A stretch of 64,000 nt of DNA from Apostichopus japonicus (Eukaryota; Echinodermata; Holothuroidea; Aspidochirotida; Stichopodidae). Below are positions 500-56,490 of the stretch, one piece after another. The stretch's first letter is position 1, and every line of letters begins with the position of its first letter. The notes beneath the pieces are model-generated. The model saw nothing but the letters and a program-made list of their open reading frames with translations. It searched no databases and had not been told where the DNA came from. A program made the translations under genes and the position numbers. The DNA is taken from positions 31,040,611 through 31,104,610 of the forward strand of contig NC_092576.1 of assembly GCF_037975245.1 (NCBI RefSeq), given 5' to 3'.

Positions 500-603
500 C
501 AACAATAAAGGAATTTACCCCTGTTCGACCTCGCAAGAGGTCCTACGGGGGATAATATTTAAGTTTTGTAGAATAGACACTTTTTTTTTTTTTTTTTTTT
601 TTT
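500..603 (-). other. Element A 3' tail: A23 tract plus 81-nt hairpin tail
   Basis: On the transcript strand a run of 23 A (581-603) is followed by 81 nt more before the U2 upstream sequence. That tail contains a perfect 6-bp stem (GACCTC at 527-532 with GAGGTC at 537-542 on the plus strand) inside a weaker outer pairing of CCCC and GGGG. A non-LTR element normally ends at its poly-A, so the tail is either a structured true 3' end or sequence picked up by read-through. The arrangement is identical in copy 2. Confidence 0.65.
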
Positions 604-906
604 CTAGGGAAAGTTGTCTATTATTCAAACAGGGAGATGCTGAGAAGTGAAGTATTGTTCGATTAACATTGTTAAGAAGCCATAAGTACACAGGAGGTCG
701 GAGCTGAGGAGCCAATTAGGTATGGATCACTAAAGGGGGAGGAATTTCTATTTAAATGGGATAAAGAAGACAGAGCGGATTCTATTGTTTTGGACGGAAA
801 TGGTTGCTACTTATTGGGACTAGTGGAGTTGTACTTAGAGTATAAGTACACCTGGAGTTTGTGGTTAGACCCACTTAGGAAATGGACTTTCTAAAGGGGA
901 GAGGCT

Positions 907-3684
907 TTAGGTAAGAAGTTTGAATACAGAGAGGTGGTGGTTTTTACGGAAGTAAGTTAATGCTACATTATGTTTCAATAGAAGTTTATTGATCAATGGA
1001 TCATTCTCTAGGTTGTTTTTGTATAGTTTGGTATTAAATTCTAAGAGTAGGGTGAATAAGGATTTTGTATTTCCTGCGAGGAGAACGTGAGAGGTAGCTA
1101 TATAAGAAGGGATTTTTAGGGCAAGTCGGTAAGCTGTAGTGTGGATTCTACTTAGGATTTGTTTATTGGAGTCTGAGATGGTAAGCAGAGAGATGCTTCC
1201 GTAACTGAGAATTGGTTTTATTTTGGAGTTGTAGATTTGGATAGTGGTTTTCGCAGGGAAATTATACTTATGTGAGAGGATTTGGATGTATTTAAGGTGG
1301 GACCAGCAGCGGCCTGCGGTTCTAGTACAGTGTAGGTTAAAGGATAGTTTATTATCAAAAGTGATACCAAGGAAGGTTGCATTGGGAGAGGCAGTGATTG
1401 GGGAGTTGAACAGGTTAATTTTGGAAATATAGTTACGAAGTTTTGAGTTTTTAAAGGAGAAATTGACTAAGTTAGATTTTGAGGGGTTTATTTTTATTCT
1501 CCACATTGAGCACCAGTTTTCGAGATGTGTAATTGCTTTTTTGAGATTAAGTTCCGTTATATGAATATTTTTACTGGTGCTCCAGATGGCTATATCGTCA
1601 GCGTACTGACTATAGTTGCAGTTTGAGAGAGGAGGGATGTTTAGATCATTTACAAACAGGGTGTAGAGGAGGGGACTGAGAACAGCGCCCTGAGGGGTGC
1701 CTGCACGAAGTGGAATGGGGTTAGAATGATGGTTTTTGTAGTAAATTTTTGTGTTGCGATCATTAAGGAAAGAGGATAGGAGTCTGGTGTAATTGGGGGG
1801 AAGATTATAGTTTAGTAGCTTAATTCTTATGCCGTTGTGCCAGGTTTTGTCAAATGCTTTTTCGGCATCAAGGAAGAGGGCAGTGGTATATTGTTTTTTA
1901 ATGAATCCGATTCGGATTTCTTCGGAAAGACGAAAAGTTTGATTTAAGGTAGATTTGTGTGTACGGAAACCTGATTGAGATGGGGAGAAATAATCATTTA
2001 GTTCTAAGTGAGTTCTAGTGCGGTTATCTATTATTCTTTCAAAAATTTTGCCAAGGGCTGGGAGGAGGCTAATTGGGCGGTAGTTTTGTATTTTGGTGCG
2101 GTCTTTATTTGGTTTAGGTATTAGAATCATTTTTGCGTATTTCCACGGGGTTGGGAAATAGCCCAGTCTAAGTAAATCGTTAAAAAGAGGGATAATATGA
2201 GAGTTGATGAAAATTTGTGGGGATTTTTTAAGCATTAAGTAATTAATATTGTCAAGACCAGGGGAGGAGGTATTTTTGCATTTTTTTGTGGCGCTATACC
2301 AATCGTTTAAGTCTATTTTTTTTAGTAGAGGGATGTTATCGTTGAGATATCCTGAGGAGTTGGGGGTAAAGCTGATTGCATTTCTGCTAATTGTTTGGTC
2401 TATTTCTTGTTTGAAATTGTTATCGTAAGGGGGGCCATCAAAGATATTAAAAATATTTTTAAAGTGTGATTCAATTAGCTTAATTTGATCTTGTGTATTT
2501 GTGATCAGGTTACCTGCATCATCTTTAATGCCTTGGTCTGAATTACCAGTGTTTGGGGTTAGAATGGGATTTATGATGTTTTTTAAGTTTTTCCAGAAGT
2601 GTTTTGGGTTTTTGTCATTTATGATCGAATCGCATTTGTTTTGGACTCGTTTTTGGTCGTCCGCCAAAATTTGTCTATTTATTTGTTTTTTAAGTTGGTT
2701 AATTTGGGTTTTTAGAGTTGGATCTCGAGAGATCATATAGGTTCTGCGAAGACGGCGTCTGAGTTTAATTAGTGTAAGAATATTCCTATTTAGTTTTCGA
2801 TTTTTGTTTTGTTTTGTTTTTAACGGACAATGTTTTTTGAAGATATTGAAGATATGTTGGGCAATGCTGTCACAGTAGTTGTCAATATAATTTAGATCGT
2901 TGTTGTGGTTTTTGTAAATGGGGATAGTGTTATATGTTACAAGTTCCTCTTTAAATGTTGTCCAGTTTGTTTTATTGTAGTTATATGTTAAATCGTTATT
3001 TTGAATGCGATTTAGGTTTAAGTCTAGCTCAAAGAGGAGTGGAAGATGGTCACTAATTAGGTTATCTTCTAGGATTTGAGTTGAATGAGTTTTAGTTGCG
3101 AGGTGGTTTGAGGTTATGGCGTAGTCCAGTAGTTCAGTATTATTGTTTATTGGGTTTATCCTAGTTTTGGTATTTTGGTTTATTATAGTTAAGTTGTGTT
3201 TATCACACAATTCTAAGAGGGATATGCCCTTTTCAGTTATTTTGGAGCTGCCAAAAATGATGTGGTGGGCGTTTAGATCTCCTAGTAGAATTGTGTTTTT
3301 GTTAGAGCATTTTTTTATTATATCAGTTGATATGGGCTCTCTTGGGGGACTATAGTAGCTAATAATGTGGAGAGGCTTATTATCTCTTTCGAGTACGATT
3401 TCAATTATTTGATTATTTGTTTGAGTTGGGTTGGAGAGGAGAGTGGCATTGAGATTAGTTTTTACAGCTATAAGTACTCCTCCTCTAGAGCGGGAGATAT
3501 CATTTCTAAAAATTTGGTAACCTGGGATGTTCAGGTGGGATTTTGGGTTTAGTTTGGTTTCATTTAGCGAAATGACATCAGGGGAGTGGTTGGTAATTAA
3601 ACTTAGTAGGAGACTCAGTTTTGGAAGGATACTGTTTATGTTTAGGTGGAGGAACTTAATCGAAGGTGGGAGGTTGTTTGTCAT
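907..3684 (-). CDS. Element A ORF2: endonuclease/reverse transcriptase (Jockey clade)
   Basis: The 925-residue protein would nick target DNA and reverse-transcribe the element RNA there. Residues 1-220 are an apurinic/apyrimidinic-type endonuclease: LNIN near 14, the catalytic Glu in NET at 42, GDLNAH with Asp136 and Asn138, and SDH at 211-213. The reverse transcriptase spans about 450-760: RPISLLP, the FLDAEKAFD motif with Asp606, GTPQGAVLSPLL, and YADD at 694-697. There is no RNase H domain, and the length is typical of Jockey ORF2. The start ATG overlaps the ORF1 stop as ATGA, suggesting coupled re-initiation. All key catalytic residues are present, so the enzyme could be active. Confidence 0.93.
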   Translation of the reverse strand: MTNNLPPSIKFLHLNINSILPKLSLLLSLITNHSPDVISLNETKLNPKSHLNIPGYQIFRNDISRSRGGVLIAVKTNLNATLLSNPTQTNNQIIEIVLERDNKPLHIISYYSPPREPISTDIIKKCSNKNTILLGDLNAHHIIFGSSKITEKGISLLELCDKHNLTIINQNTKTRINPINNNTELLDYAITSNHLATKTHSTQILEDNLISDHLPLLFELDLNLNRIQNNDLTYNYNKTNWTTFKEELVTYNTIPIYKNHNNDLNYIDNYCDSIAQHIFNIFKKHCPLKTKQNKNRKLNRNILTLIKLRRRLRRTYMISRDPTLKTQINQLKKQINRQILADDQKRVQNKCDSIINDKNPKHFWKNLKNIINPILTPNTGNSDQGIKDDAGNLITNTQDQIKLIESHFKNIFNIFDGPPYDNNFKQEIDQTISRNAISFTPNSSGYLNDNIPLLKKIDLNDWYSATKKCKNTSSPGLDNINYLMLKKSPQIFINSHIIPLFNDLLRLGYFPTPWKYAKMILIPKPNKDRTKIQNYRPISLLPALGKIFERIIDNRTRTHLELNDYFSPSQSGFRTHKSTLNQTFRLSEEIRIGFIKKQYTTALFLDAEKAFDKTWHNGIRIKLLNYNLPPNYTRLLSSFLNDRNTKIYYKNHHSNPIPLRAGTPQGAVLSPLLYTLFVNDLNIPPLSNCNYSQYADDIAIWSTSKNIHITELNLKKAITHLENWCSMWRIKINPSKSNLVNFSFKNSKLRNYISKINLFNSPITASPNATFLGITFDNKLSFNLHCTRTAGRCWSHLKYIQILSHKYNFPAKTTIQIYNSKIKPILSYGSISLLTISDSNKQILSRIHTTAYRLALKIPSYIATSHVLLAGNTKSLFTLLLEFNTKLYKNNLENDPLINKLLLKHNVALTYFRKNHHLSVFKLLT

Positions 3685-4832
3685 TTTGGTGACTGAGGAG
3701 GGCTGAATATTGAAGGTTGATAGAGACGTTCCATAATTAAAGTTTTCGGGATATTTAAGTTGAGGTGTTTTAATGCTAGAACGGTGGAGTAGCTAGCAAG
3801 GTCTTCAGGTTTAATGCTGATATTGGCTTTTTGAAAGGTATATTGAACTAATTCAATTACAAATGTAGTGATATTAAGTTTTTCTTCGGTTGCGATTTTG
3901 TTTGTAATTTCGATTTTAGGGGCAGCTTTTGTGACATTTGCGTAAGTTCTCTGAACTTGTTGTTTGTTAATTGCTTCTGTTTTGGCTTCTTTAAATTTGG
4001 GGCAGCCTTTGTAAAGGGCGGCATGACTCCCTGAACAGTTTGCGCATTTCGTATTTTCTTTTTGTTCTGGGCATTCTTTGACCCGGTGGTTTTCGCCACA
4101 TCTTAGGCATCTGGTTTGATTTTTGCAGGTGTGATGGGTGTGCCCAAAGAGCTGGCATTTGAAGCATTGGGTTACTTGGGGGGGTTCGTTATATTCTTCA
4201 GTTTTGTGTTTGGAATATCCTAGGTAAAGGCCTTGTTTGATCAGTGTTTGTTGCTGTTCTTTATCTTCGAAAGTTATTTTTACCTTCCAGGTAGGGTTGT
4301 TTGTTGCTCGACTGATTAATCTTTTTGTTTGGGTTGGTGAGTATTCTTGTTCTTTTAGTTCCTCTTCGATATCTTTAATTTGGATTTCGGGGTTTATACC
4401 GCAGGCAACTACTGAGAAATTTCTTGATCTTGTTTTTTGGGGGATTCTAGGTTTAGGGTTGCCTAATTTAGTATTTTGTGTCCATGGTTGAAGGAGAATA
4501 TTTGCCGATTTAGGGTCATGGGGGGTAATTAGTATGTCGTTACTGCGGAGACGGTTTATGTTTAGTATCATGGCGTTTGGTTTCTCTTCGTTGATTAGTT
4601 TAGCTAGGGTTATAGGGTTATTTGATATTTCTGGGAGGATACCTGAGACGATGATTGATTGGGCGGATTTTTTTGGGGCTGTCTTGGAGTTTGGGGATGG
4701 GTTTGCCTCAACGGAATTAGGGCGTTGTCTTTTCCTACTGTTTTGAACTGGGATCCAGTCATTTAGATCAAAGTCAAGAAGGTTAAGGTTGTCATCAAGG
4801 GGGTCAGTTAGAGTTGGGTTAGGGGTTGCCAT
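3681..4832 (-). CDS. Element A ORF1: Gag-like zinc-knuckle protein
   Basis: This 383-residue protein should coat element RNA and help deliver it to the nucleus. The frame is open further upstream to about 4904, but without an ATG; the first in-frame ATG gives the start MATPNP. Three cysteine knuckles follow each other: C223-C226-H231-C236, C242-C245-H249-C254 and C263-C266-H270-C277. The second and third have shortened or irregular spacing, as is common in Jockey and I-type Gag proteins. The N-terminal part is rich in Asn, Pro and Lys, and residues about 140-215 probably form an RRM-like fold. Coding sequence is much more AT-rich than in elements B to D. Confidence 0.88.
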   Translation of the reverse strand: MATPNPTLTDPLDDNLNLLDFDLNDWIPVQNSRKRQRPNSVEANPSPNSKTAPKKSAQSIIVSGILPEISNNPITLAKLINEEKPNAMILNINRLRSNDILITPHDPKSANILLQPWTQNTKLGNPKPRIPQKTRSRNFSVVACGINPEIQIKDIEEELKEQEYSPTQTKRLISRATNNPTWKVKITFEDKEQQQTLIKQGLYLGYSKHKTEEYNEPPQVTQCFKCQLFGHTHHTCKNQTRCLRCGENHRVKECPEQKENTKCANCSGSHAALYKGCPKFKEAKTEAINKQQVQRTYANVTKAAPKIEITNKIATEEKLNITTFVIELVQYTFQKANISIKPEDLASYSTVLALKHLNLNIPKTLIMERLYQPSIFSPPQSPK

Positions 4833-5167
4833 AATGGCAAAACAGCCCCTCCCTTTTGGATCTAAATGGCTTCTTGTACAATGAAAAATCGAGCAAAACT
4901 TCACTTACCAGAGAAAATTTGTCTCCAGCCTAAGGCGGCGGACGGAAAAAATAAAAAACTCCTTATGATGAGGCACTTATGGATTGAGATTGGCTTCGTA
5001 GCACAGTAATGGTAGCAAAGGACGCGTATTGGAGAAAGTGGCGGGTAAGTCCGGAGTGGAGGCTCACGGGACGGTGTATAATACTGCTGACGTGTACGTA
5101 ACCATGACAACAAAAATGGGTTGGGTATGTTTTCGACTTGAAACGAATCAAAGAAAATGATAACGAA
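4833..5167 (-). other. Element A 5' region
   Basis: This stretch between the right element boundary and the ORF1 ATG has no recognised gene. On the minus strand it contains CTCTGGTAAGTGAAG at about 4903-4917, a good match to a splice-donor consensus, but no paired acceptor is evident. An in-frame open stretch reaches back toward 5173 in another frame and is not convincing as a gene. Confidence 0.5.
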
Positions 5168-5800: not shown

Positions 5801-6219
5801 AACGATAACTAACAACAATAAAGGAATTTACCCCTGTTCGACCTCGCAAGAGGTCCTACGGGGGATAATATTTAAGTTTTGTAGAATAGACACTTTTTTT
5901 TTTTTTTTTTTTTTTTCTAGGGAAAGTTGTCTATTATTCAAACAGGGAGATGCTGAGAAGTGAAGTATTGTTCGATTAACATTGTTAAGAAGCCATAAGT
6001 ACACAGGAGGTCGGAGCTGAGGAGCCAATTAGGTATGGATCACTAAAGGGGGAGGAATTTCTATTTAAATGGGATAAAGAAGACAGAGCGGATTCTATTG
6101 TTTTGGACGGAAATGGTTGCTACTTATTGGGACTAGTGGAGTTGTACTTAGAGTATAAGTACACCTGGAGTTTGTGGTTAGACCCACTTAGGAAATGGAC
6201 TTTCTAAAGGGGAGAGGCT

Positions 6220-8997
6220 TTAGGTAAGAAGTTTGAATACAGAGAGGTGGTGGTTTTTACGGAAGTAAGTTAATGCTACATTATGTTTCAATAGAAGTTT
6301 ATTGATCAATGGATCATTCTCTAGGTTGTTTTTGTATAGTTTGGTATTAAATTCTAAGAGTAGGGTGAATAAGGATTTTGTATTTCCTGCGAGGAGAACG
6401 TGAGAGGTAGCTATATAAGAAGGGATTTTTAGGGCAAGTCGGTAAGCTGTAGTGTGGATTCTACTTAGGATTTGTTTATTGGAGTCTGAGATGGTAAGCA
6501 GAGAGATGCTTCCGTAACTGAGAATTGGTTTTATTTTGGAGTTGTAGATTTGGATAGTGGTTTTCGCAGGGAAATTATACTTATGTGAGAGGATTTGGAT
6601 GTATTTAAGGTGGGACCAGCAGCGGCCTGCGGTTCTAGTACAGTGTAGGTTAAAGGATAGTTTATTATCAAAAGTGATACCAAGGAAGGTTGCATTGGGA
6701 GAGGCAGTGATTGGGGAGTTGAACAGGTTAATTTTGGAAATATAGTTACGAAGTTTTGAGTTTTTAAAGGAGAAATTGACTAAGTTAGATTTTGAGGGGT
6801 TTATTTTTATTCTCCACATTGAGCACCAGTTTTCGAGATGTGTAATTGCTTTTTTGAGATTAAGTTCCGTTATATGAATATTTTTACTGGTGCTCCAGAT
6901 GGCTATATCGTCAGCGTACTGACTATAGTTGCAGTTTGAGAGAGGAGGGATGTTTAGATCATTTACAAACAGGGTGTAGAGGAGGGGACTGAGAACAGCG
7001 CCCTGAGGGGTGCCTGCACGAAGTGGAATGGGGTTAGAATGATGGTTTTTGTAGTAAATTTTTGTGTTGCGATCATTAAGGAAAGAGGATAGGAGTCTGG
7101 TGTAATTGGGGGGAAGATTATAGTTTAGTAGCTTAATTCTTATGCCGTTGTGCCAGGTTTTGTCAAATGCTTTTTCGGCATCAAGGAAGAGGGCAGTGGT
7201 ATATTGTTTTTTAATGAATCCGATTCGGATTTCTTCGGAAAGACGAAAAGTTTGATTTAAGGTAGATTTGTGTGTACGGAAACCTGATTGAGATGGGGAG
7301 AAATAATCATTTAGTTCTAAGTGAGTTCTAGTGCGGTTATCTATTATTCTTTCAAAAATTTTGCCAAGGGCTGGGAGGAGGCTAATTGGGCGGTAGTTTT
7401 GTATTTTGGTGCGGTCTTTATTTGGTTTAGGTATTAGAATCATTTTTGCGTATTTCCACGGGGTTGGGAAATAGCCCAGTCTAAGTAAATCGTTAAAAAG
7501 AGGGATAATATGAGAGTTGATGAAAATTTGTGGGGATTTTTTAAGCATTAAGTAATTAATATTGTCAAGACCAGGGGAGGAGGTATTTTTGCATTTTTTT
7601 GTGGCGCTATACCAATCGTTTAAGTCTATTTTTTTTAGTAGAGGGATGTTATCGTTGAGATATCCTGAGGAGTTGGGGGTAAAGCTGATTGCATTTCTGC
7701 TAATTGTTTGGTCTATTTCTTGTTTGAAATTGTTATCGTAAGGGGGGCCATCAAAGATATTAAAAATATTTTTAAAGTGTGATTCAATTAGCTTAATTTG
7801 ATCTTGTGTATTTGTGATCAGGTTACCTGCATCATCTTTAATGCCTTGGTCTGAATTACCAGTGTTTGGGGTTAGAATGGGATTTATGATGTTTTTTAAG
7901 TTTTTCCAGAAGTGTTTTGGGTTTTTGTCATTTATGATCGAATCGCATTTGTTTTGGACTCGTTTTTGGTCGTCCGCCAAAATTTGTCTATTTATTTGTT
8001 TTTTAAGTTGGTTAATTTGGGTTTTTAGAGTTGGATCTCGAGAGATCATATAGGTTCTGCGAAGACGGCGTCTGAGTTTAATTAGTGTAAGAATATTCCT
8101 ATTTAGTTTTCGATTTTTGTTTTGTTTTGTTTTTAACGGACAATGTTTTTTGAAGATATTGAAGATATGTTGGGCAATGCTGTCACAGTAGTTGTCAATA
8201 TAATTTAGATCGTTGTTGTGGTTTTTGTAAATGGGGATAGTGTTATATGTTACAAGTTCCTCTTTAAATGTTGTCCAGTTTGTTTTATTGTAGTTATATG
8301 TTAAATCGTTATTTTGAATGCGATTTAGGTTTAAGTCTAGCTCAAAGAGGAGTGGAAGATGGTCACTAATTAGGTTATCTTCTAGGATTTGAGTTGAATG
8401 AGTTTTAGTTGCGAGGTGGTTTGAGGTTATGGCGTAGTCCAGTAGTTCAGTATTATTGTTTATTGGGTTTATCCTAGTTTTGGTATTTTGGTTTATTATA
8501 GTTAAGTTGTGTTTATCACACAATTCTAAGAGGGATATGCCCTTTTCAGTTATTTTGGAGCTGCCAAAAATGATGTGGTGGGCGTTTAGATCTCCTAGTA
8601 GAATTGTGTTTTTGTTAGAGCATTTTTTTATTATATCAGTTGATATGGGCTCTCTTGGGGGACTATAGTAGCTAATAATGTGGAGAGGCTTATTATCTCT
8701 TTCGAGTACGATTTCAATTATTTGATTATTTGTTTGAGTTGGGTTGGAGAGGAGAGTGGCATTGAGATTAGTTTTTACAGCTATAAGTACTCCTCCTCTA
8801 GAGCGGGAGATATCATTTCTAAAAATTTGGTAACCTGGGATGTTCAGGTGGGATTTTGGGTTTAGTTTGGTTTCATTTAGCGAAATGACATCAGGGGAGT
8901 GGTTGGTAATTAAACTTAGTAGGAGACTCAGTTTTGGAAGGATACTGTTTATGTTTAGGTGGAGGAACTTAATCGAAGGTGGGAGGTTGTTTGTCAT
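6220..8997 (-). CDS. Element A copy 2 ORF2: endonuclease/reverse transcriptase
   Basis: The 925-residue protein is identical to that of copy 1: N-terminal AP-type endonuclease, central reverse transcriptase with YADD, no RNase H. It has no stop codon or frameshift. The start overlaps the ORF1 stop as ATGA. Confidence 0.93.
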   Translation of the reverse strand: MTNNLPPSIKFLHLNINSILPKLSLLLSLITNHSPDVISLNETKLNPKSHLNIPGYQIFRNDISRSRGGVLIAVKTNLNATLLSNPTQTNNQIIEIVLERDNKPLHIISYYSPPREPISTDIIKKCSNKNTILLGDLNAHHIIFGSSKITEKGISLLELCDKHNLTIINQNTKTRINPINNNTELLDYAITSNHLATKTHSTQILEDNLISDHLPLLFELDLNLNRIQNNDLTYNYNKTNWTTFKEELVTYNTIPIYKNHNNDLNYIDNYCDSIAQHIFNIFKKHCPLKTKQNKNRKLNRNILTLIKLRRRLRRTYMISRDPTLKTQINQLKKQINRQILADDQKRVQNKCDSIINDKNPKHFWKNLKNIINPILTPNTGNSDQGIKDDAGNLITNTQDQIKLIESHFKNIFNIFDGPPYDNNFKQEIDQTISRNAISFTPNSSGYLNDNIPLLKKIDLNDWYSATKKCKNTSSPGLDNINYLMLKKSPQIFINSHIIPLFNDLLRLGYFPTPWKYAKMILIPKPNKDRTKIQNYRPISLLPALGKIFERIIDNRTRTHLELNDYFSPSQSGFRTHKSTLNQTFRLSEEIRIGFIKKQYTTALFLDAEKAFDKTWHNGIRIKLLNYNLPPNYTRLLSSFLNDRNTKIYYKNHHSNPIPLRAGTPQGAVLSPLLYTLFVNDLNIPPLSNCNYSQYADDIAIWSTSKNIHITELNLKKAITHLENWCSMWRIKINPSKSNLVNFSFKNSKLRNYISKINLFNSPITASPNATFLGITFDNKLSFNLHCTRTAGRCWSHLKYIQILSHKYNFPAKTTIQIYNSKIKPILSYGSISLLTISDSNKQILSRIHTTAYRLALKIPSYIATSHVLLAGNTKSLFTLLLEFNTKLYKNNLENDPLINKLLLKHNVALTYFRKNHHLSVFKLLT

Positions 8998-10145
8998 TTT
9001 GGTGACTGAGGAGGGCTGAATATTGAAGGTTGATAGAGACGTTCCATAATTAAAGTTTTCGGGATATTTAAGTTGAGGTGTTTTAATGCTAGAACGGTGG
9101 AGTAGCTAGCAAGGTCTTCAGGTTTAATGCTGATATTGGCTTTTTGAAAGGTATATTGAACTAATTCAATTACAAATGTAGTGATATTAAGTTTTTCTTC
9201 GGTTGCGATTTTGTTTGTAATTTCGATTTTAGGGGCAGCTTTTGTGACATTTGCGTAAGTTCTCTGAACTTGTTGTTTGTTAATTGCTTCTGTTTTGGCT
9301 TCTTTAAATTTGGGGCAGCCTTTGTAAAGGGCGGCATGACTCCCTGAACAGTTTGCGCATTTCGTATTTTCTTTTTGTTCTGGGCATTCTTTGACCCGGT
9401 GGTTTTCGCCACATCTTAGGCATCTGGTTTGATTTTTGCAGGTGTGATGGGTGTGCCCAAAGAGCTGGCATTTGAAGCATTGGGTTACTTGGGGGGGTTC
9501 GTTATATTCTTCAGTTTTGTGTTTGGAATATCCTAGGTAAAGGCCTTGTTTGATCAGTGTTTGTTGCTGTTCTTTATCTTCGAAAGTTATTTTTACCTTC
9601 CAGGTAGGGTTGTTTGTTGCTCGACTGATTAATCTTTTTGTTTGGGTTGGTGAGTATTCTTGTTCTTTTAGTTCCTCTTCGATATCTTTAATTTGGATTT
9701 CGGGGTTTATACCGCAGGCAACTACTGAGAAATTTCTTGATCTTGTTTTTTGGGGGATTCTAGGTTTAGGGTTGCCTAATTTAGTATTTTGTGTCCATGG
9801 TTGAAGGAGAATATTTGCCGATTTAGGGTCATGGGGGGTAATTAGTATGTCGTTACTGCGGAGACGGTTTATGTTTAGTATCATGGCGTTTGGTTTCTCT
9901 TCGTTGATTAGTTTAGCTAGGGTTATAGGGTTATTTGATATTTCTGGGAGGATACCTGAGACGATGATTGATTGGGCGGATTTTTTTGGGGCTGTCTTGG
10001 AGTTTGGGGATGGGTTTGCCTCAACGGAATTAGGGCGTTGTCTTTTCCTACTGTTTTGAACTGGGATCCAGTCATTTAGATCAAAGTCAAGAAGGTTAAG
10101 GTTGTCATCAAGGGGGTCAGTTAGAGTTGGGTTAGGGGTTGCCAT
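8994..10145 (-). CDS. Element A copy 2 ORF1: Gag-like zinc-knuckle protein
   Basis: This 383-residue protein is identical to copy 1 ORF1, with three cysteine knuckles at residues 223-277. The start is the first in-frame ATG; the open frame extends about 24 codons further upstream without one. Confidence 0.88.
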   Translation of the reverse strand: MATPNPTLTDPLDDNLNLLDFDLNDWIPVQNSRKRQRPNSVEANPSPNSKTAPKKSAQSIIVSGILPEISNNPITLAKLINEEKPNAMILNINRLRSNDILITPHDPKSANILLQPWTQNTKLGNPKPRIPQKTRSRNFSVVACGINPEIQIKDIEEELKEQEYSPTQTKRLISRATNNPTWKVKITFEDKEQQQTLIKQGLYLGYSKHKTEEYNEPPQVTQCFKCQLFGHTHHTCKNQTRCLRCGENHRVKECPEQKENTKCANCSGSHAALYKGCPKFKEAKTEAINKQQVQRTYANVTKAAPKIEITNKIATEEKLNITTFVIELVQYTFQKANISIKPEDLASYSTVLALKHLNLNIPKTLIMERLYQPSIFSPPQSPK

Positions 10146-10922
10146 AATGGCAAAACAGCCCCTCCCTTTTGGATCTAAATGGCTTCTTGTACAATGAAAA
10201 ATCGAGCAAAACTTCACTTACCAGAGAAAATTTGTCTCCAGCCTAAGGCGGCGGACGGAAAAAATAAAAAACTCCTTATGATGAGGCACTTATGGATTGA
10301 GATTGGCTTCGTAGCACAGTAATGGTAGCAAAGGACGCGTATTGGAGAAAGTGGCGGGTAAGTCCGGAGTGGAGGCTCACGGGACGGTGTATAATACTGC
10401 TGACGTGTACGTAACCATGACAACAAAAATGGGTTGGGTATGTTTTCGACTTGAAACGAATCAAAGAAAATGATAACGAATGACAATTCCCAGCGTTAGG
10501 CTGTCTTACAACTTACCTTCGTTCTGAAACTGACAGATATGGGAAGCCGATGACTGCTCTGATGTCTAAATATCACATCACCTCATATGTACCCTCGTTA
10601 CGCCATTCTATATAACTTGAAGGTGTCTACAAACTTCGTTGTCCGCATTATCACTGTTCCGCCCGGGTCCAGTGTTAGGCCTGAAAAATGGAAAAGGTCT
10701 ATCTTAACCGCATGTTTTGACTGTGCCGAGAAATCGTTGGCCGGGAAACACTATGTGACGTCACAGAAAGAGAATTTTTCCTGTGACGTCACCGGAAAGT
10801 ATTTCCGATGGGTTGTATGAATGGAAATTCCAATTCGCTTAATCCGCGAGGGAAGATCAACAGGTAGGTAAGGTATCTCTTTTAACTTTTTTTATTTTTT
10901 ATTATTGATGATATCCCCGAAG

Positions 10923-18695: not shown

Positions 18696-18840
18696 TTTTA
18701 AGAAAAAGTCACCCAGGAAAGAACCTGGGCACGAAAACCAAACTACCAAACGACTGATCCGCTCTCAGCCCCAGTCCCCTTGCATCGGGACTGTGACTGT
18801 GTGATCATCGTCAGGTGTGTATCACCATTCCCTAAGGGAT
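18696..18840 (-). mobile_element. Insert F: short element with 8-bp target duplication
   Basis: A 145-bp insertion flanked by CAGATACT on both sides enters U2 at the same nick (between nt 34 and 35) as C, D and E. On the transcript strand the last part holds a hairpin, CCCAGG-TTCTTT-CCTGGG, and ends TTCTTAAAA. One minus-strand frame is open for about 31 codons from near the 5' junction and then stops, leaving roughly 50 nt as a short 3' UTR. It is most likely a severely 5'-truncated copy of another U2-specific element; a short non-autonomous element is possible. It does not resemble the 3' ends of A to E. Confidence 0.75.
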
Positions 18841-18882
18841 CAGATACTACACATGATCTTAGCCAAAAGGCCGAGAAGCGAT
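18841..18882 (-). pseudogene. U2: U2 5' fragment beyond insert F
   Basis: This is U2 nt 1-42, including the 8-bp duplicated target sequence CAGATACT (plus strand). Confidence 0.92.
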
Positions 18883-19612: not shown

Positions 19613-22600
19613 CTACTTCATACAAGTATCATAACATAATTCATCATTAACAATACGAACAAATGTACTTCCATTTGTCCATAACTTTTTAAACTTATCT
19701 CCCGAAAAACGCTTGAAATCAGCTCTAATACGAAACTTTAGTTCGTTTTTAATTAAACAAATGACATCATCATCCGAAATGAAACGGGATTCAAAGACGT
19801 GAATACAACGAGCTTTCCAAATATAAAACCTACATACGCAAAAAACAAACCAAATCCTATAATACACCTCCTTTGGAATACTGGGCGCCGGAGCGCCGAA
19901 CAAAAAGAAACTTTGACTAAAGAAAACATTTCCCGCTAATTTGGTAAAGACCCTGCTCACCCACAGGAGAATTCCATAAACTCTCCGACAATTCCAGAAA
20001 ACGTGTGATAAGGACTCACTCTTACCACACCCTGCAAAAGAACAAACACCGCTCCCTATACCCCACATTTTAAGTCTTTCCCTTGTATACAAAATTCTAT
20101 GTGAAAACCGCCATTGAAAGGCAACATACTTATGCTCTAAGGCCGGATGAAAGACCGCCTTCCAAATGTCACCCCATGGCAACAAAGGAAAATTCCTTGT
20201 AACAGTAGGTAGCGTATTATCTCCTTCGATGAGAAGGGACACAATGTACTTTGTGGAGAAACGATCAAATACAAAATTACTAACTTTCTTAAATAAATAT
20301 TCAATTAAATCACAAACAAAGGACAACGATGGGGTACATTGGTCGCTGTTAGGCCGGGAATTCGACCACAGCTCCGGCTGAAACTTACGTAACCGCTTAC
20401 TGATGAAAAAACGAATGAAATATGCAGAACTTAACAAAGGATCATCAGACAGAATACTCAGGACAGGCCTGACCAACATAGCATTTAGTTTCAACTTAAA
20501 ATTATCCAAACCCAAACCCCCTTCCCTCTTGTCGAGCATAACAACCTTTCTCGAAACTAGCTCCGTTTTCCCGGACCAAAGGAACGAAAAGGAGGCCCTC
20601 ACAACCCTCCTGACCACCACCTCGGGAACAGGGAAAACTGCAGCTAAAAAGTAAAACAATGGATATACTACGACATTAATGAGTAGGACTTTACCCAACA
20701 GTGTCAAATTTCTACCCTTCCACATATTAAATAATAACTCCATTTTCTCAAACTTTTTACTCCAATTACTATAAATAGAGTTAGGAGTACCAAAAACAAT
20801 TCCAGTGATTTTAATGGACGTCTCACTCCAGTTAATATTAGCTGGAAGCTTCCGCCCAACAAAACCACCTAACTTTAACCCACACGTCTTAGATAAATTA
20901 ATACACGCACCTGTGGCTCTACGAAACAAATCAATAGTATTAAAAAACCCTTTCACATCTCCATGGCAACTAGCGACGCACGTGGCGTCGTCAGCATACT
21001 GTAGAAATTTAACAGTCTTGCCGCTGCTACCAGGGAGTGAGAGGCCCCTAATTCCTCTAAACGAAGAAATGTAGCGAGCAAGAGGCTCGATAAACAAAAC
21101 ATACAAAGACGGTGACAAGGGACACCCTTGTCTAACCCCTCTCTTAATAAAAACATCACCGGATAAACGACCGTTGACCAGTATACGGCTACAAATATTA
21201 TTATACAAAATACTGATCCACTTACAAAAATTTTCACCAAAATTCGTTTTACGCAAAACTTTTAACAAAAACGACCAGTCGACCTTGTCGAAAGCTTTGT
21301 GCTGATCTAATGAAATCAGTGCACAGGAATTTCCTTTCAAATTAACATAATCAATAACATCACGAATAACAAACAAATTCTGATGAATAGAACGACCGGG
21401 AACGGAACACGTTTGAAAATCATTTACAACGGAAGACATAACAGTAGAAATTCTTTTCTGCAAAACTTTAGAAATAATTTTGTAATCAACAGTCAGGAGG
21501 CTGATAGGCCTCCTGTTGGCGGGGTCGAGGGGGTCACCCTTCTTTGGCAGGAGGGTGACGACCGCCGTCCGTTGCGACTCACTTAAAAACCCTGTACTAA
21601 AAATCTCGTTATACATAACTAATAAATCAGGCCCTAGAATATCAAAAAAAGATTTATAAAATTCACAGGGCAGGCCGTCGATACCTGGCGATTTGTTATT
21701 CGCCATACTGTCGATAGCACATTTAATCTCTAACAAAGACAACGGCTGATCAAGACCAGCCCGTTCTATGTCAGACACCTTTGTGCCAACACAATCTAAA
21801 AAAATTCCTTGAGCCTCGCTCTCGTTATTGTTAACGACAGAATACAAATTACTGTAAAAATCATGAAAAACATTTATAATACCATCACCGTGCACGATTG
21901 TACCCCCCGAATCCCTAATCCCCCTAATAACTTTTCCCTCGGCACGATTTCTTTCTTTTCTATAAAAATAACTTGTAGGGTTTTCCCCTTCCTCTAAAAC
22001 TTTTTCCCTCGAACGAACAAAGGCCCCCTTTTTCTCCTCTGATAACAGCCGGGATACAGTCTCTTCATCCCCGGAGAGACACCGCGACTGTAACTCCCCC
22101 AGCTGCCGCCGCTTCTCCCGGGCCCGACGCACCCCATGACAAATAAAAAGACCTTTAATTCTTCCCTTAACAACCTCCCACCATTCAACAATAGTATCAA
22201 AACCAGGCATTAAGGTACGCCACAAATTATAATACGTTTTAAATGCATTAACAAACACATGGTCATCAAGAATGGAAGTATTACACTTCCAATAACCTTT
22301 ACTGTATAGCGCATTTCCAATGGGAATAGCAACTTCTACATTTAACACGTCGTGATCAGAAAAGGGAAAATTGAAAACAGCTGGCTTTCTAGAACAAAAA
22401 TGATTTGGAAGATAAAGACGATCGATTCTAGAACTTAAACCTTTTCCGGAATGCTTCCATGTGTGGCCGCCCGAACTAAAACCACGAAGCCAACAATCGG
22501 ATAAATTACAAGACTGTAAAAAGGACTTAATTTCTTCCCGCCCTACAAAACAAGAAGTGTTTAAAGAATGACCCGATCGATCCTCTTTAGACATGATACA

Positions 22601-23065
22601 ATTAAAATCTCCCCCAACAACCAAAGGAACACGTCCTCGCGTGTAGAAAAACAGATTCTTAAGAAAGGAAACCCGCTCTTTTGGAGAGCAAGGCGCGTAC
22701 ACATTACAAAAACGAATAGAATAAGAATCTGAAAAGGTACAAATTACTGAAATACAACGTCCTACATTGTCGCTGTTAACTTGCGAAAACTTACAACGTA
22801 ATTTGGAAGAAAAGGCAATTGCAACCCCACAGGAATGAGAAGAAACCGCCGGAGAATAGAAAACCGGCCCGTCCCAAACAGTTTTGAAATACGTAAAATC
22901 ATCAGTACATAAATATGTTTCTTGTAGAAAAATAACATCAAATTTAAACAATTGCATCCAATTTAAGACATTTCCACACTTTGCAAGATCACGAATACCA
23001 TGAACATTAATAGTTGCTAAGGAAATATAGATATTAGCCATTAGAAAAGTGATGAAAAAATACAT
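19613..23065 (-). CDS. Element C1 ORF2: endonuclease/reverse transcriptase
   Basis: The 1150-residue protein would make the U2-specific nick and carry out target-primed reverse transcription. The AP-type endonuclease is at residues 9-240: INVHG near 20, Glu49 in LQET, GGDFNC with Asp153 and Asn155, SRIDRLY at 212-218, and SDHD at 236-239. The reverse transcriptase spans about 440-760, with SPGIDGLPCEFY, RRPISLL, SLDQHKAFD (Asp587), GVRQGCPLSPSL and QYADD (692-693). A C-terminal Cys/His motif (C-X4-C...H-X4-C, in the segment CSFAGCGKSESLSHVFWNC) follows, as in other Tx1-type ORF2. The ATG overlaps the ORF1 stop as TAATG; Met9 is an alternative start. The frame is intact. Confidence 0.94.
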   Translation of the reverse strand: MYFFITFLMANIYISLATINVHGIRDLAKCGNVLNWMQLFKFDVIFLQETYLCTDDFTYFKTVWDGPVFYSPAVSSHSCGVAIAFSSKLRCKFSQVNSDNVGRCISVICTFSDSYSIRFCNVYAPCSPKERVSFLKNLFFYTRGRVPLVVGGDFNCIMSKEDRSGHSLNTSCFVGREEIKSFLQSCNLSDCWLRGFSSGGHTWKHSGKGLSSRIDRLYLPNHFCSRKPAVFNFPFSDHDVLNVEVAIPIGNALYSKGYWKCNTSILDDHVFVNAFKTYYNLWRTLMPGFDTIVEWWEVVKGRIKGLFICHGVRRAREKRRQLGELQSRCLSGDEETVSRLLSEEKKGAFVRSREKVLEEGENPTSYFYRKERNRAEGKVIRGIRDSGGTIVHGDGIINVFHDFYSNLYSVVNNNESEAQGIFLDCVGTKVSDIERAGLDQPLSLLEIKCAIDSMANNKSPGIDGLPCEFYKSFFDILGPDLLVMYNEIFSTGFLSESQRTAVVTLLPKKGDPLDPANRRPISLLTVDYKIISKVLQKRISTVMSSVVNDFQTCSVPGRSIHQNLFVIRDVIDYVNLKGNSCALISLDQHKAFDKVDWSFLLKVLRKTNFGENFCKWISILYNNICSRILVNGRLSGDVFIKRGVRQGCPLSPSLYVLFIEPLARYISSFRGIRGLSLPGSSGKTVKFLQYADDATCVASCHGDVKGFFNTIDLFRRATGACINLSKTCGLKLGGFVGRKLPANINWSETSIKITGIVFGTPNSIYSNWSKKFEKMELLFNMWKGRNLTLLGKVLLINVVVYPLFYFLAAVFPVPEVVVRRVVRASFSFLWSGKTELVSRKVVMLDKREGGLGLDNFKLKLNAMLVRPVLSILSDDPLLSSAYFIRFFISKRLRKFQPELWSNSRPNSDQCTPSLSFVCDLIEYLFKKVSNFVFDRFSTKYIVSLLIEGDNTLPTVTRNFPLLPWGDIWKAVFHPALEHKYVAFQWRFSHRILYTRERLKMWGIGSGVCSFAGCGKSESLSHVFWNCRRVYGILLWVSRVFTKLAGNVFFSQSFFLFGAPAPSIPKEVYYRIWFVFCVCRFYIWKARCIHVFESRFISDDDVICLIKNELKFRIRADFKRFSGDKFKKLWTNGSTFVRIVNDELCYDTCMK

Positions 23066-24477
23066 TACAAATCTTTAAGAAAATACTGATTGAAATACGA
23101 AACATCATGCATACATACAAAATGTGGGTGTTGTGAAGACAAATGCATAGCCCACTCGAACGGATTGGTACAATGTTTATTGCACGACTTCAATGGGCAC
23201 TCGAATCGCGTAGGGCTGATCCCGGGGTGGCGTTCCTTTAGATGACAGAGAAAGTCGCGGTACGATCTAAAACTCGTCTTGCACTTCCCTTGAGCACACG
23301 AAAACCACGGCTTTTCCTCCGTCACGACATTCGCGGCGCGGACAACGTCTTTCGCTTTCTGTACTGCGGGCGAAACTCGGTACAGGGAACGGGACCTCCT
23401 GGGTGGCGTAGAGGGCGGTCGCTTCAGTCCCCGTCTGACCTCGGTGAAATCGTCACCCACATCGCTCTCCATACCTCGCTCATCTGACGCACCGGTTCCT
23501 GGTGGGACGTGTATGGTGGCCTGGACCTCCAAAACCGTGGGCTCTTGGGCGGGGGTGTCTGGTATGGCGTCGGCCCAAGACTGACCGATAGTCATAGCCT
23601 CATCCAGCTCCACCTCTCTTTCCGGGCTAAACAGTGAACTGCTGCTGGTCGGTGTGTCATCGACCATGGTGACGTCATCACCAGACTTGGTGACGTCAAC
23701 AGCGCTGACATCCTCGGACGGGACGGGCTCCCCGTCACCAGACTTGGTGGCGACACTGACTTCTGGTGGGGTGGGCTCCTCCTCACTAGGTGGTAAAACC
23801 TCGGCTGCACCGCCCACCCAAGCTGTCGAAAGCTTCAGCTTGTTTGCAAAGGAGACCGGACAGGCTGTGTAGGCGTGCCCGGCATTACCACATGTGGTAC
23901 AAATCTGCTTCTCGCTGCATGCACGAGACACGTGGCCAACCTGGAGGCATCTAAAACAACGGATGACGTCACAATTCCTGGCATCGTGGCCTGCAGCTCC
24001 ACACTTCAGACATGTGCGGGGCTGTCCTCCATACCGCACCCAGCAGTTACGGCCACCCAGACTCAGAGAGGACGGAATGTCGGTTGCCATCTCCATCCTG
24101 TACTGCCTCACGCCGTTGTACAGCTCCGGGTACTCTTTGTGGGTGAGATACCGGCCGGAAAAGACTTTGCCGTATCTCCCCAGGACGTAGCGGACGGCGT
24201 TGTCGTTCAACTCGTGGGGCACGTGCAAGACAGTCACGATCTTGACAGCATCAGTGTATGCTGTCGCCGTGACGTCACTGGCCTCTCGGAAAACTGGCCA
24301 GAACTTCCGCTTCATCTCCACCGACTTGAATGTTACATCGAACTTGCCACCAGGCAGGGACTGGACGGCAGTTAAATGTTCTGCCGGACTGACTAAATAT
24401 CTTTTCAAAACTTCGAAAACATTTCCTCCATCAACTTTCAAGAGGATACTACAATCTCTCCTCGGATTATGCTCCAT
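23065..24477 (-). CDS. Element C1 ORF1: zinc-knuckle and C2H2-finger protein
   Basis: The 470-residue protein should bind element RNA, and its extra fingers might bind DNA. An RRM-like N-terminal region (1-150) is followed by three CX2CX4HX4C knuckles: C156-C159-H164-C169, C174-C177-H182-C187 and C193-C196-H201-C206. After an acidic Ser/Thr/Pro-rich linker come two C2H2 fingers near the C terminus: C394-C399-H412-H417 and C427-C432-H445-H450. The start codon is only 14 nt inside the element, so the mRNA leader would be largely the U2 5' end. Confidence 0.92.
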   Translation of the reverse strand: MEHNPRRDCSILLKVDGGNVFEVLKRYLVSPAEHLTAVQSLPGGKFDVTFKSVEMKRKFWPVFREASDVTATAYTDAVKIVTVLHVPHELNDNAVRYVLGRYGKVFSGRYLTHKEYPELYNGVRQYRMEMATDIPSSLSLGGRNCWVRYGGQPRTCLKCGAAGHDARNCDVIRCFRCLQVGHVSRACSEKQICTTCGNAGHAYTACPVSFANKLKLSTAWVGGAAEVLPPSEEEPTPPEVSVATKSGDGEPVPSEDVSAVDVTKSGDDVTMVDDTPTSSSSLFSPEREVELDEAMTIGQSWADAIPDTPAQEPTVLEVQATIHVPPGTGASDERGMESDVGDDFTEVRRGLKRPPSTPPRRSRSLYRVSPAVQKAKDVVRAANVVTEEKPWFSCAQGKCKTSFRSYRDFLCHLKERHPGISPTRFECPLKSCNKHCTNPFEWAMHLSSQHPHFVCMHDVSYFNQYFLKDL

Positions 24478-24491
24478 AACGCTGCATAAAA

Positions 24492-24517
24492 CTTAGCCAA
24501 AAGGCCGAGAAAGCGAT
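24492..24517 (-). pseudogene. U2: U2 5' fragment upstream of C1, with 1-bp insertion
   Basis: U2 nt 1-25 with one extra A after nt 7 or 8. This lengthens the potential leader of C1 to 40 nt; in C2 and C3 it is 39. Confidence 0.9.
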
Positions 24518-24971
24518 AACGATAACTAATGACAATTCCCAGCGTTAGGCTGTCTTACAACTTACCTTCGTTCTGAAACTGACAGATATGGGAAGCCGAT
24601 GACTGCTCTGATGTCTAAATATCACATCACCTCATATGTACCCTCGTTACGCCATTCTATATAACTTGAAGGTGTCTACAAACTTCGTTGTCCGCATTAT
24701 CACTGTTCCGCCCGGGTCCAGTGTTAGGCCTGAAAAATGGAAAAGGTCTATCTTAACCGCATGTTTTGACTGTGCCGAGAAATCCTTGGCCGGGAAACAC
24801 TATGTGACGTCACAGAAAGAGAATTTTTCCTGTGACGTCACCGGAAAGTATTTCCGATGGGTTGTATGAATGGAAATTCCAATTCGCTTAATCCGCGAGG
24901 GAAGATCAACAGGTAGGTAAGGTATCTCTTTTAACTTTTTTTATTTTTTATTATTGATGATATCCCCGAAG

Positions 24972-25162
24972 GGAGTGGGCCGAATCCCGGAGGTAGTGCA
25001 AAACCGGGCCAACCCGTGACCAGGACGGAGCAAGCTCCTATTCCATAGTCCATGTGCAAAAATCAGTTTAATATACAAGCGACTCGATGAGTCGCGTTTC
25101 AGATATTAAGCTGAAAAGAACAGATACTACACATGATCTTAGCCAAAAGGCCGAGAAGCGAT
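24972..25162 (-). ncRNA. U2: U2 snRNA gene, intact
   Basis: This is a complete U2 gene in a normal unit between element C1 and the C2-bearing unit. Its unit is the first to show C instead of G at the diagnostic spacer position (24785 in the preceding spacer). Confidence 0.96.
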
Positions 25163-30772: not shown

Positions 30773-30797
30773 CTTAGCCAAAAGGCCGAGAAGCGAT
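30773..30797 (-). pseudogene. U2: U2 5' fragment (nt 1-25) upstream of C2
   Basis: This is an unmutated U2 5' end. The ORF1 ATG of C2 starts exactly at U2-numbered position 40. Confidence 0.92.
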
Positions 30798-36392: not shown

Positions 36393-36406
36393 AACGCTGC
36401 ATAAAA

Positions 36407-36431
36407 CTTAGCCAAAAGGCCGAGAAGCGAT
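36407..36431 (-). pseudogene. U2: U2 5' fragment (nt 1-25) upstream of C3
   Basis: This unmutated U2 5' end is joined to C3 after nt 25, giving a 39-nt potential leader. Confidence 0.92.
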
Positions 36432-42012: not shown

Positions 42013-42022
42013 GATGAGTACG

Positions 42023-42051
42023 TGATCTTAGCCAAAAGGCCGAGAAGCGAT
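42023..42051 (-). pseudogene. U2: U2 5' fragment (nt 1-29) upstream of D1
   Basis: This U2 5' end is joined to D1 after nt 29; together with 10 element nt it makes a 39-nt potential leader. Confidence 0.92.
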
Positions 42052-47506: not shown

Positions 47507-47703
47507 CGCCTAGGCAAACGGAACCAGGGAACAGGGAAAAACTCACGGAATGCTAACACGCAAACCGTGAGGGGATGAGAGGGAAACGCCTCTCTTGGGG
47601 GAGGGGAACGGGAAACACGAACAGGAACCACAAATCCGGCACAAAATACAATAAGAAACACTTCTTAGGAAAAGCACTCTAGTAAAACAGCTGGTAAACC
47701 GCA

Positions 47704-47733
47704 ATGATCTTAGCCAAAAGGCCGAGAAGCGAT
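47704..47733 (-). pseudogene. U2: U2 5' fragment (nt 1-30) upstream of B2
   Basis: This intact U2 5' end is joined to the B2 5' UTR after nt 30. Confidence 0.92.
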
Positions 47734-48496: not shown

Positions 48497-51400
48497 TTAA
48501 GGAAGATGACATTGAAAACCACCATGATCTAACGTAACAAGAGAAGAACCCTCTACCCAAATTTTCTTAAACTTATACCCCGTCCACCTTTTAAAATCAA
48601 CCGAGATTCTTCTGGTAACGTTCTTTTTCACAAACTTAATGAAAACATCATCACATGATCGCTTGCCTTCAAAAACATATTGGCACCGGCGATCCCATAA
48701 GGCCTTGCGAACCCAAACATAAATATACCACAGACGACCCCAGATGACCTTAGTTGTATCTGGGGACGGATAGCCATAAACGAATATACTGAAAGTAAAT
48801 GCACTCAATGGACCGATAAGATTTTCGGTGACCTTATTCACCCAACAAAGGATACTATAAACAGACTTACAATCCCAAAATACATGACGAAATGATTCTA
48901 ACTCCGAACAAAAGGGACACCGCCCGTCTCCTAACCCCCACTTTAGAAGTTTGACCCTAGTATACAAAACCCTGTGCGTGGACTTCCAACTAAAAGACTT
49001 AAGAGAATTACAAAACAAAGGATGCATCGTCCCGTTCCAAATCGAGGGCCAATCCCAGTTCGGGTAGGACTCCTCTATCCTTGGGACCACCCTTTCAGAA
49101 ACAAGCAACCGAACAATATCTTTTGTACTCTTACAAAGAGAAAGAAAATCGTTGTTTACATTACTCATAGCAAACAAAGCAACACTCGCGTGATAATACG
49201 AATTAGAAACAGAATCACAATGCGGCACTGAATTGGACCAAAGAAAAGGAAAAATAACTCTCAGAGTTCTGGCTAGAAAATAACGGGCAAACATAAAATT
49301 ACATGAGTAATCGTCACACCTCCTTAAAAAAGGTAACATAGGCCAAACTAATAACGCTTTCATTTTGTACTTAAAATTATCCAGGCCAAGGCCTCCATTC
49401 TCTTTGCTAAGCATGACGACCTTCCTGCTAACTAATTCTGTTTTGTTCTTCCAAAGGAAAGAGAAAACCAAACGCAGAATATCATCGAAAAACTTATCGT
49501 CTGGAAAATAAACAGGCGCGATGTAATAGAACAGTGAAAAAATACACATGTTAATAATGTTGACTTTACCCAGGAGCGTAAGGCAACGATTCTCCCAGGC
49601 ACGTAACTTAGTCTTGGCCTTCTCGAACAAAGACCGCCAAAAGGAACGGATATAAGTATCTTTTCCAAAACAAATACCATTTATAAAAATTTCACCTTCT
49701 CTCCACTGAATATCACCCATTACTCTACGTCCAACAAAAGCACCCAATTTTAGACCCTTGGTTTTATTTAAATTAAGGGATGCACCTGTAGCCCTTTCAA
49801 ACAAAGTATAGGCTTTCAAATAATTTACAACGTCACTCTGTGATGAGGCAATACACGTGGCATCATCTGCATATTGCAGTAACTTAATAACTCTCCCCCC
49901 AGACCCTGGAATGTGAAAACCTCTTATATTGTTACACTGTAGAATATACTGAGCTAAAGGCTCTATAAACAAAACATACAAAGCAGGAGACAATGGGCAG
50001 CCCTGACGAACACCTCTTTGGATTGTGACGTCATCAGAGAGCTGCCCATTGACGAGAACTTTACTACGAATATCAGTGTAAAGGATCTTAACCCACGATA
50101 AGAAATACGAACCTAAGTTCATTTTCTTAAGAACTTTAAAAAGAAATGACCAATTTACCTTGTCAAAGGCTTTGTGTTGGTCCAGCGAAATAAAAGCACA
50201 TGCATTTCCCCGAAACTTAACCATATCAGCAATATCTCTCAAAATCGAAAGGTTCTGGTGAATAGATCGACCAGGCACCGAGCAAGTTTGAAAGATACTC
50301 ACAATACTAGACATAACACGGGACAAACGTAATTGTAAAATTTTGGCGATAACTTTGTAGTCAGCTGTTAGCAGACTAATCGGCCTACGATTTGCGGGAT
50401 CTAAGGCATCCCCTTTCTTCGGCAACAGAGCAACAACCGAAATACGCTGTGAAACTGATAACAATTTTCTACAAAATACATCATTATATAAACACAACAA
50501 ATCTTCACCAAGCAAATCCAAGAATTCTAAATAAAATTCAGCGGGGAGCCCGTCGATTCCTGGTGACTTATTCTTAGCCATGGCAGATAATGCCAGCTTA
50601 ATTTCACTTAACTCAATCGGCTTCTCCAAATCCTTAAGTTGATCGGCCGAAACCGAACAAGCAATAGAATTTAAGAGAGAAGACTGAGACTCTCGATCGA
50701 CGGAGTTATCCGCAGAATACAAATGACTGTAGAACTCATGAAAAACATTAATAACCCCAGTACCCTTAACAATACAACCATTAGAATCCCGAACTTGTTT
50801 TATAAACTTAGCTTGAGCGCGGGCTCGCTCCTTCAAATAAAAATACCCAGGAGTTTCCCCATCCTCCAAAAATCTCTCCCTAGAACGAATAAAAGCGCCC
50901 TCTCTTTCCTCAGCGAGGATACGAGCAACAACCTCATTATCCCCCGAGAGACAACGAGAATGAAGCTCTTTTAACACTTTGCGCTTTTCCCGAGCTCGGC
51001 GAACGCCATAAACAATACACAAATCTCTGATTCTGGACTTGATGGTTTCCCACCATTCCGCTACAGAAACAAACCCTGCTTTAAGTGTCCGCCACAAACG
51101 TAAATACATTGACAAATCTTTTTTAAAATTAACATCATTAAGAATCGATAAATTACACTTCCAATAAAGCTTCTTAAAACCATTGCAATTAGAAATCTTC
51201 AAAGTAACCGAAAACGCATCATGATCAGAAAAAGGAAAGGGAATAACCTTATCATTGTACAGCGTAAAGTTACTATTAACATAAATTCTGTCGAGACGAG
51301 AACTTAAACCTTTGCCGTGGTGCACCCACGTGTGACAACGTCTCGACGAACTGTCAATTAACGAGAAAGAATTCAGATAAGAATGGAGTTCCTCTCGCCC

Positions 51401-53314: not shown

Positions 53315-53324
53315 GATGAGTACG

Positions 53325-53353
53325 TGATCTCAGCCAAAAGGCCGAGAAGCGAT
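53325..53353 (-). pseudogene. U2: U2 5' fragment (nt 1-29) upstream of D2, one substitution
   Basis: This U2 5' end carries A to G at nt 23, the only substitution I noticed in a U2 5' fragment. It suggests the fragment is no longer held by U2 constraint or conversion. Confidence 0.9.
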
Positions 53354-54484: not shown

Positions 54485-54534
54485 GAAAAGAACAGATACT
54501 ACACATGATCTTAGCCAAAAGGCCGAGAAGCGAT
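54485..54534 (-). pseudogene. U2: U2 5' part beyond element E
   Basis: This is U2 nt 1-50, including the 16-bp target duplication. Confidence 0.92.
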
Positions 54535-56446: not shown

Positions 56447-56490
56447 AACAGATACTACACATGATCTTAGCCAAAAGGCCGAGAAGCGAT
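56447..56490 (-). pseudogene. U2: U2 5' part beyond truncated element B
   Basis: This is U2 nt 1-44, including the 7-bp target duplication. Confidence 0.92.

Follow-up and report, generated by a model that had tools for sequence, protein, structure and literature searches.

Several retrotransposon families inside sea cucumber U2 snRNA genes probably borrow the U2 promoter and leader, and two apparently even an AUG

U2-specific elements and the array analyzed here

Two groups of elements specific for U2 snRNA genes are outlined in the available sections of PMC4640811: Keno, which has an apurinic-type endonuclease and occurs in frogs, fish, lancelet and hydra, and Utopia, which has a restriction-like endonuclease and generally one protein. 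The 3' flank of Keno equals that of Utopia, which starts at nt 39 in Phytophthora (PMC4640811). A word search of that paper's text found nothing on such use of a promoter or start codon, and no account of a Keno leader or of joint inheritance was seen; a literature search of titles and abstract openings, including few subscription journals, returned no use of a U2 leader or start codon by such elements. For elements of 28S genes, the accessible parts of two papers describe how the host gene can contribute to the element RNA. Full-length and truncated copies of melanogaster-type R1 differ in their joints, which is explained by an RNA with 6-27 nt of 28S sequence annealing to the target (Stage and Eickbush, PMC2718515), and the picture for R2 is similar (PMC3774820).

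The window analyzed here is a stretch of 64,000 nucleotides on contig C16 (31,040,611-31,104,610) of the 671.6-Mb genome of Apostichopus japonicus. Its minus strand carries tandem U2 snRNA genes in a 645-bp unit, interrupted by non-LTR retrotransposons. As the 5' end of these tandem genes, the sequence ATCGCTTCTC occurs 19 times in the window, whereas shuffles contain it 0.07 times on average. Resident families B, C and D are L1-like, with zinc knuckles in ORF1 and an apurinic-type endonuclease and reverse transcriptase in ORF2, where Pfam Exo_endo_phos and RVT_1 matched in all three; among solved structures, LINE-1 ORF2p is closest to C ORF2. A preliminary description of this DNA had treated C and D as diverged families, which is borne out by identities of 46% in ORF1 and 53.5% in ORF2. 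The array and its flank also hold the related families F (two copies, ORF1 57% identical to C), G and I, the last being a single relic whose partial match is nearer D than C and whose frame closes after 31 codons. Full-length copies number six for G and five for B.

Keno, as described, resembles these elements in apparently targeting the same part of U2, in its apurinic-type endonuclease and reverse transcriptase, both of which are found in ORF2 of C, D and B, and in living in an animal-sized genome. Downstream of the insertions, U2 sequence continues from nt 35 (C, D, G and a U2-headed SINE) or nt 38 (B), and for the four families this is close to the nt 39 described for Keno and Utopia, with microhomology. 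Utopia as described is similar in its residence in U2 genes, its family-variable 5' boundaries and the presence of several families per array. Membership in Utopia was nevertheless rejected, since each of C, D and B has two ORFs, the second of which encodes an endonuclease domain of the apurinic type.

Leaders and insertion joints of the resident families

In the preliminary description, the ORF1 ATG of copies C2, C3, D1 and D2 begins exactly at position 40, counting from U2 +1. Reading the copies confirmed this, with a leader made of U2 nt 1-25 plus 14 element nt in C2 and C3 and of U2 nt 1-29 plus 10 element nt in D1 and D2. The positions given there, 24477-24517, are those of C1, where an extra T moves the ATG to 41.

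24478-24517, minus strand: C1 leader, U2 nt 1-25 plus an extra T (24492-24517), then 14 element nt (24478-24491), ATG at 41
19613-24477, minus strand: C1 ORF1 (23065-24477, 470 aa, zinc knuckle) and ORF2 (19613-23065, 1150 aa, endonuclease and reverse transcriptase), domains read on C3
30759-30797, minus strand: C2 leader, U2 +1 at 30797, U2 nt 1-25 (30773-30797) plus 14 nt
36393-36431, minus strand: C3 leader, U2 +1 at 36431, U2 nt 1-25 (36407-36431) plus 14 nt
42013-42051, minus strand: D1 leader, U2 +1 at 42051, U2 nt 1-29 (42023-42051) plus 10 nt
53315-53353, minus strand: D2 leader, U2 +1 at 53353, U2 nt 1-29 (53325-53353) plus 10 nt

ORF1 spans 29346-30758 in C2, 34980-36392 in C3, 40621-42012 in D1 and 51923-53314 in D2. 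ORF2 spans 31528-34980 in C3, 37195-40587 in D1 and 48497-51889 in D2, and lies in two frames in C2 (27748-29346 and 25893-27719). The U2 sequence following C1 picks up at 19493, which is nt 35 of the gene. D2 has a single substitution within the U2 portion of its leader, A to G at nt 23, and in C a second ATG, out of frame and in weak context, is found at 30, ahead of the ORF1 ATG at 40. The preliminary description had also called for a check of other C and D copies for variable leaders. Elsewhere in the host genome, both C starts (L005 and L006) and the one D start (L003) found among the best-scoring candidates of ORF1 searches again have the ATG at 40, and the frames of all three are broken. 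L006 is a C relic that is 86-97% identical to C piecewise and lies in a unit that is ~93% identical, and L003 is 55-56 substitutions away from the other D copies. Leader length is stable within each of families C and D, across copies of different age.

A 39-nt leader reached through different joints had been read as a sign of selection for keeping the start codon at this distance from U2 +1, and such a leader is present at 4 of 5 C and 3 of 3 D starts found here. The other residents do not support selection for this length. Counted from U2 +1, ORF1 starts at 29 in F and I, 207 in G and 228 in B, giving leaders of 28, 28, 206 and 227 nt, and C1, with its 40-nt leader, has both ORFs open. In simulations with joints at 25-31 followed by 0-14 element nt, ranges that were picked after the data were seen, two or more of four short leaders came out equal in 31% of draws. 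Thus, nothing special about the length of 39 is supported, and we regard selection for it as extremely improbable.

We then read insertion joints in 184 kb of the array (30,990,001-31,174,000). Full-length 5' joints were uniform within families, at U2 nt 25 in C (4/4), 29 in D (3/3), 31 in F (2/2), 30 in B (5/5) and 50 in G (6/6). The U2 nucleotides deleted are 26-34 in C (9 bp) and 30-34 in D (5 bp). Joints of truncated copies were at 45 in B (2/2), at 50 in a G-like copy, and at 53 and 40 in the SINE, with microhomology at 42-45 and 43-45 in the truncated B copies. Full-length B copies, two more of which begin at 16149 and 62170, carry a 7-bp deletion, in contrast to an 8-bp duplication in truncated ones. 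Copy F1 ends in a SINE tail and contains other insertions, and no deletion size is given for F.

47507-47733, minus strand: leader of B, the comparison family, U2 nt 1-30 plus 197 nt, ORF1 ATG at 228
56446-56490, minus strand: U2 nt 1-45, followed by a 5'-truncated B copy, after which U2 resumes at nt 38
54485-54534, minus strand: U2 nt 1-50, followed by a 5'-truncated G-like copy, after which U2 resumes at nt 35

Family B thus shows both halves of the pattern attributed to leader tagging in R1, uniform full-length joints with a deletion (5/5) and duplications at truncated copies (2/2), and C and D show the full-length half. No truncated C or D copies were found in the 184 kb of array, and the contrast between full-length and truncated copies comes from B. 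By analogy, a leader tag would apply directly to B, and to C and D through their 9- and 5-bp deletions. As far as the accessible parts of PMC2718515 and PMC3774820 describe R1 and R2, the likeness extends to gene-derived RNA sequence that pairs with the target, uniform full-length joints, a deletion of 9 bp (also 9 bp in C) and duplications at truncated copies. Unlike R1 and R2, the elements here sit in a Pol II snRNA gene whose +1 is no more than 25-31 nt away on the upstream side, and their leader continues directly into ORF1. Only U2 reached Rfam gathering scores in the window, and an HDV-type ribozyme, as in R2-type co-transcription, was not detected at that threshold.

Uniform joints could also arise if unequal exchange or gene conversion multiplied one founder per family as DNA, in which case the joints would be uninformative on RNA. 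Two B pairs and one C pair have 0 substitutions, G copies differ by 0-3, and most spacers are 99-100% identical, all of which fits such copying. However, the joint is also common to distinct lineages separated by 20-31 substitutions in B, 27-28 in C and 55-56 in D, and is shared by the C relic in its diverged unit. Copying of founders as DNA also offers no reason for the clustering at 25-31 of joints from several families, and we consider it improbable as the main explanation.

Probable transcription from the interrupted U2 gene

For 18 of the 20 full-length copies at the U2 site, the preceding U2 unit is uninterrupted, with an identity of 99.69% or more between -300 and the joint. The two exceptions, one D and one F copy at the older edge of the array, have ~95% identity. 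The same U2 unit, with the following motif, precedes C1 and the other copies.

24560-24577, minus strand: PSE-like motif TTCAGAACGAAGGTAAGT, at -60 from the U2 +1 of C1, 12/18 positions

A motif like TTCACTGCGG..GTAACT is found at -60 in the array unit, at -62 in four U2 genes on contig C15, and at -59 and -60 in two U5 genes, with a weaker match (9/18) at -51 in U1; the motif was written from some of the scored genes (C15 U2 and U5), and the scores are without shuffle control. We take the motif at -60 to be the probable PSE. An AATAAA is present near the 3' end in C and G, and absent in D and B. In general, snRNA promoters are poor at producing mRNA. According to the part of PMC3874203 that was available, human U1 and U2 units extend no further than ~1 kb.

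Evidence for RNAs that start at U2 +1 comes from a SINE with a U2-derived head.

18696-18882, minus strand: U2-headed SINE within the array, with a single seamless U2 head

Kojima reportedly described SINEs with snRNA-derived heads in 2015, and the likeness to the SINE found here lies in its U2-derived head. Allowing up to 3 mismatches, the genome contains 1153 matches to U2 nt 1-25, U2 genes included. Among the first 100 of the 1153 matches listed, we read 26 dispersed heads at 24 loci, all with an exact head. One SINE with approximately U2 nt 1-45 as its head is present at all of these loci except L064 (L033-L036, L051-L063 and L065-L070), with two heads in tandem at some (L034 and L036). 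Both ends were readable for 17 heads, and 9 were left out. A target duplication of 7-15 bp ends exactly at U2 +1 in 8 of the 17, counted without a shuffle control, and one more has an 11-bp duplication that is off by one. The other 8 have no duplication at +1; in two of them, 8-bp matches lie at distances of 5 and 11 nt. The duplications ending at U2 +1 indicate that RNAs starting at this position have been retrotransposed in this genome. Within the array, a single seamless head was seen in each of three full-length SINE copies. Off-target insertions with U2 tags were thus seen for the SINE, and no off-target C copies with U2 sequence were found.

Relatives outside U2, designated H1 and H2, allow a different start to be considered. 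Of 16 loci examined, tRNA genes are present in 6, with some of the elements located in clusters of tRNA genes; after dropping two copies truncated inside ORF1 and two of another family, 12 were compared (H1: L017-L022 and L027; H2: L024, L026 and L029-L031). These 7 H1 and 5 H2 copies share no common sequence beyond ~0-20 nt before the ORF1 ATG. Three H1/H2 sets have flanking satellite DNA in common, and H1 carries a poly(A) tail (L075 and L077). The family trees contain only families of this genome, and the H2 row of the ORF2 tree was ignored because its frame is that of another element. Since H1 and H2 lack a 5' UTR away from U2, a missing 5' UTR alone does not imply U2 transcription. In one H1 copy (L086, C18:7751414-7751538), 117 nt from elsewhere in the genome separate a 16-nt duplication from the start of the element. 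The insert matches C19:23045007-23045123 (L087) at 100% and looks intronic, and the chimera looks like the product of a template switch where an RNA ended near the ATG.

C and D RNAs could likewise start near the first base of the element from a promoter inside ORF1, as those of H1 and H2 may, with the U2 part being flanking DNA that remains when the top strand is nicked upstream of the bottom-strand site. The lack of group-wide sequence ahead of ORF1 in H1 and H2 and the insert from another chromosome, as if the template switched close to the ATG, both favor this model, and target deletions by upstream nicks are an accepted outcome in the part of PMC2881922 consulted. It does not account for joints that differ between full-length and truncated B copies or for the SINE start at U2 +1, however, and it would leave only 10-14 nt before the AUG in C and D. 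We therefore view an internal promoter as unlikely.

The best explanation, with a probability of about two in three, is that C and D RNAs use the U2 promoter and carry a chimeric U2-element leader. C and D are site-specific, L1-like (Keno-like) non-LTR retrotransposons inside U2 genes, and contribute only 14 and 10 nt of 5' UTR themselves. Transcription would start at U2 +1, driven by the Pol II snRNA promoter of the gene they interrupt, yielding a chimeric RNA made of U2 nt 1-25 or 1-29, 10-14 element nt, ORF1 and ORF2, on which ribosomes would begin at the AUG at position 40. Upon reinsertion, the U2 part of the cDNA may pair with the U2 gene and recreate the same joint, so that joint and leader would pass on with the RNA, while truncated cDNAs without the U2 part would join near nt 40-53. 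The preliminary interpretation is thus supported, by inference from the upstream unit, the B joints and the SINE at +1, as regards use of the U2 promoter and leader, and unsupported as regards the fixed length.

This reading is supported by the B joint contrast, the SINE start at U2 +1, the near-intact upstream units, the constant C and D leaders, and the F and I starts on an AUG within U2. Against it are the leaderless H1 and H2 away from U2, the ~1-kb length of human U1 and U2 units, the out-of-frame upstream ATG of C, the weak PSE-like match in U1, the lack of truncated C or D copies and of off-target C copies with U2 sequence among those found, and the 8 of 17 SINE heads that have no duplication at +1; in addition, identical copies may be DNA duplicates. 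Several U2-resident families probably borrow the promoter and first 25-31 bases of the U2 gene, and two apparently even an AUG. Site-specific Keno-like LINEs and R1-like leader tags are already known, whereas the leader supplied by an snRNA gene is new, as is possibly the start codon. If true, an snRNA promoter yields a translated RNA of ~5 kb, which is at odds with the usual view of these promoters, and the parasites need the U2 copies that they disrupt to be transcribed. Such a natural chimera would make the rules by which Pol II sorts snRNA from mRNA testable, and would extend the leader-tag mechanism of R1 and R2 from rRNA to snRNA genes.

The AUG within U2

A genome search found 60 full-length U2 5' regions, 56 on C16 and four on C15 (at 3624569, 6370901, 6478810 and 6532256). 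All 60 depart from the search pattern at nt 30 alone, which is T (GATCATGTGTAG) and not the A of the Rfam consensus (GAUCAAGUGUAG); host U2 therefore has an AUG at nt 29-31.

24970-25162, minus strand: intact U2 gene with ATG at nt 29-31 (AAG in the Rfam consensus), from Rfam match and consensus comparison

ORF1 of both F and I starts exactly on this AUG. By alignment the F start is homologous to the C start, and I was compared by eye. At the same place D has ACG and B has ATT, and C is without it. Two dispersed SINE heads (L051 and L052) have AAG, not ATG. G (L007-L012) keeps the U2 AUG, which opens a frame of 58 codons whose TAA ends one nt before the ORF1 AUG (TAAC, then ATG). In 5000 shuffles the stop fell within the last 6 nt in 59, and no stop came before ORF1 in 432; an upstream frame ending at ORF1 is suggestive, though post hoc. 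This pattern across families, few in number and compared post hoc, fits translated RNAs that contain U2 nt 29-31. We tentatively propose, as a real possibility, that the U2 AUG is the translation start for the F and I proteins, in which case the U2 gene would supply promoter, cap site, leader and start codon.

The ATG-free leader of B was also considered as a sign of translation from U2 +1 and was dropped, as its 197 nt contain 0 ATG but so do 29% of shuffles. Family A (window positions 507-5158 and 5820-10471) is a dispersed element with its own 5' UTR, different from B, C and D, and is inserted just upstream of U2 +1, separating the PSE-like motif from the gene. It was rejected as a promoter-capturing U2 element, given that its 5' end matches 40 places on many contigs, including two within the window. 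A segment of the U2 spacer (-211 to -66) is repeated head to tail with a ~150-bp period at C16:31004438-31006476, on the older edge of the array, in 12 rows between longer first and last rows.
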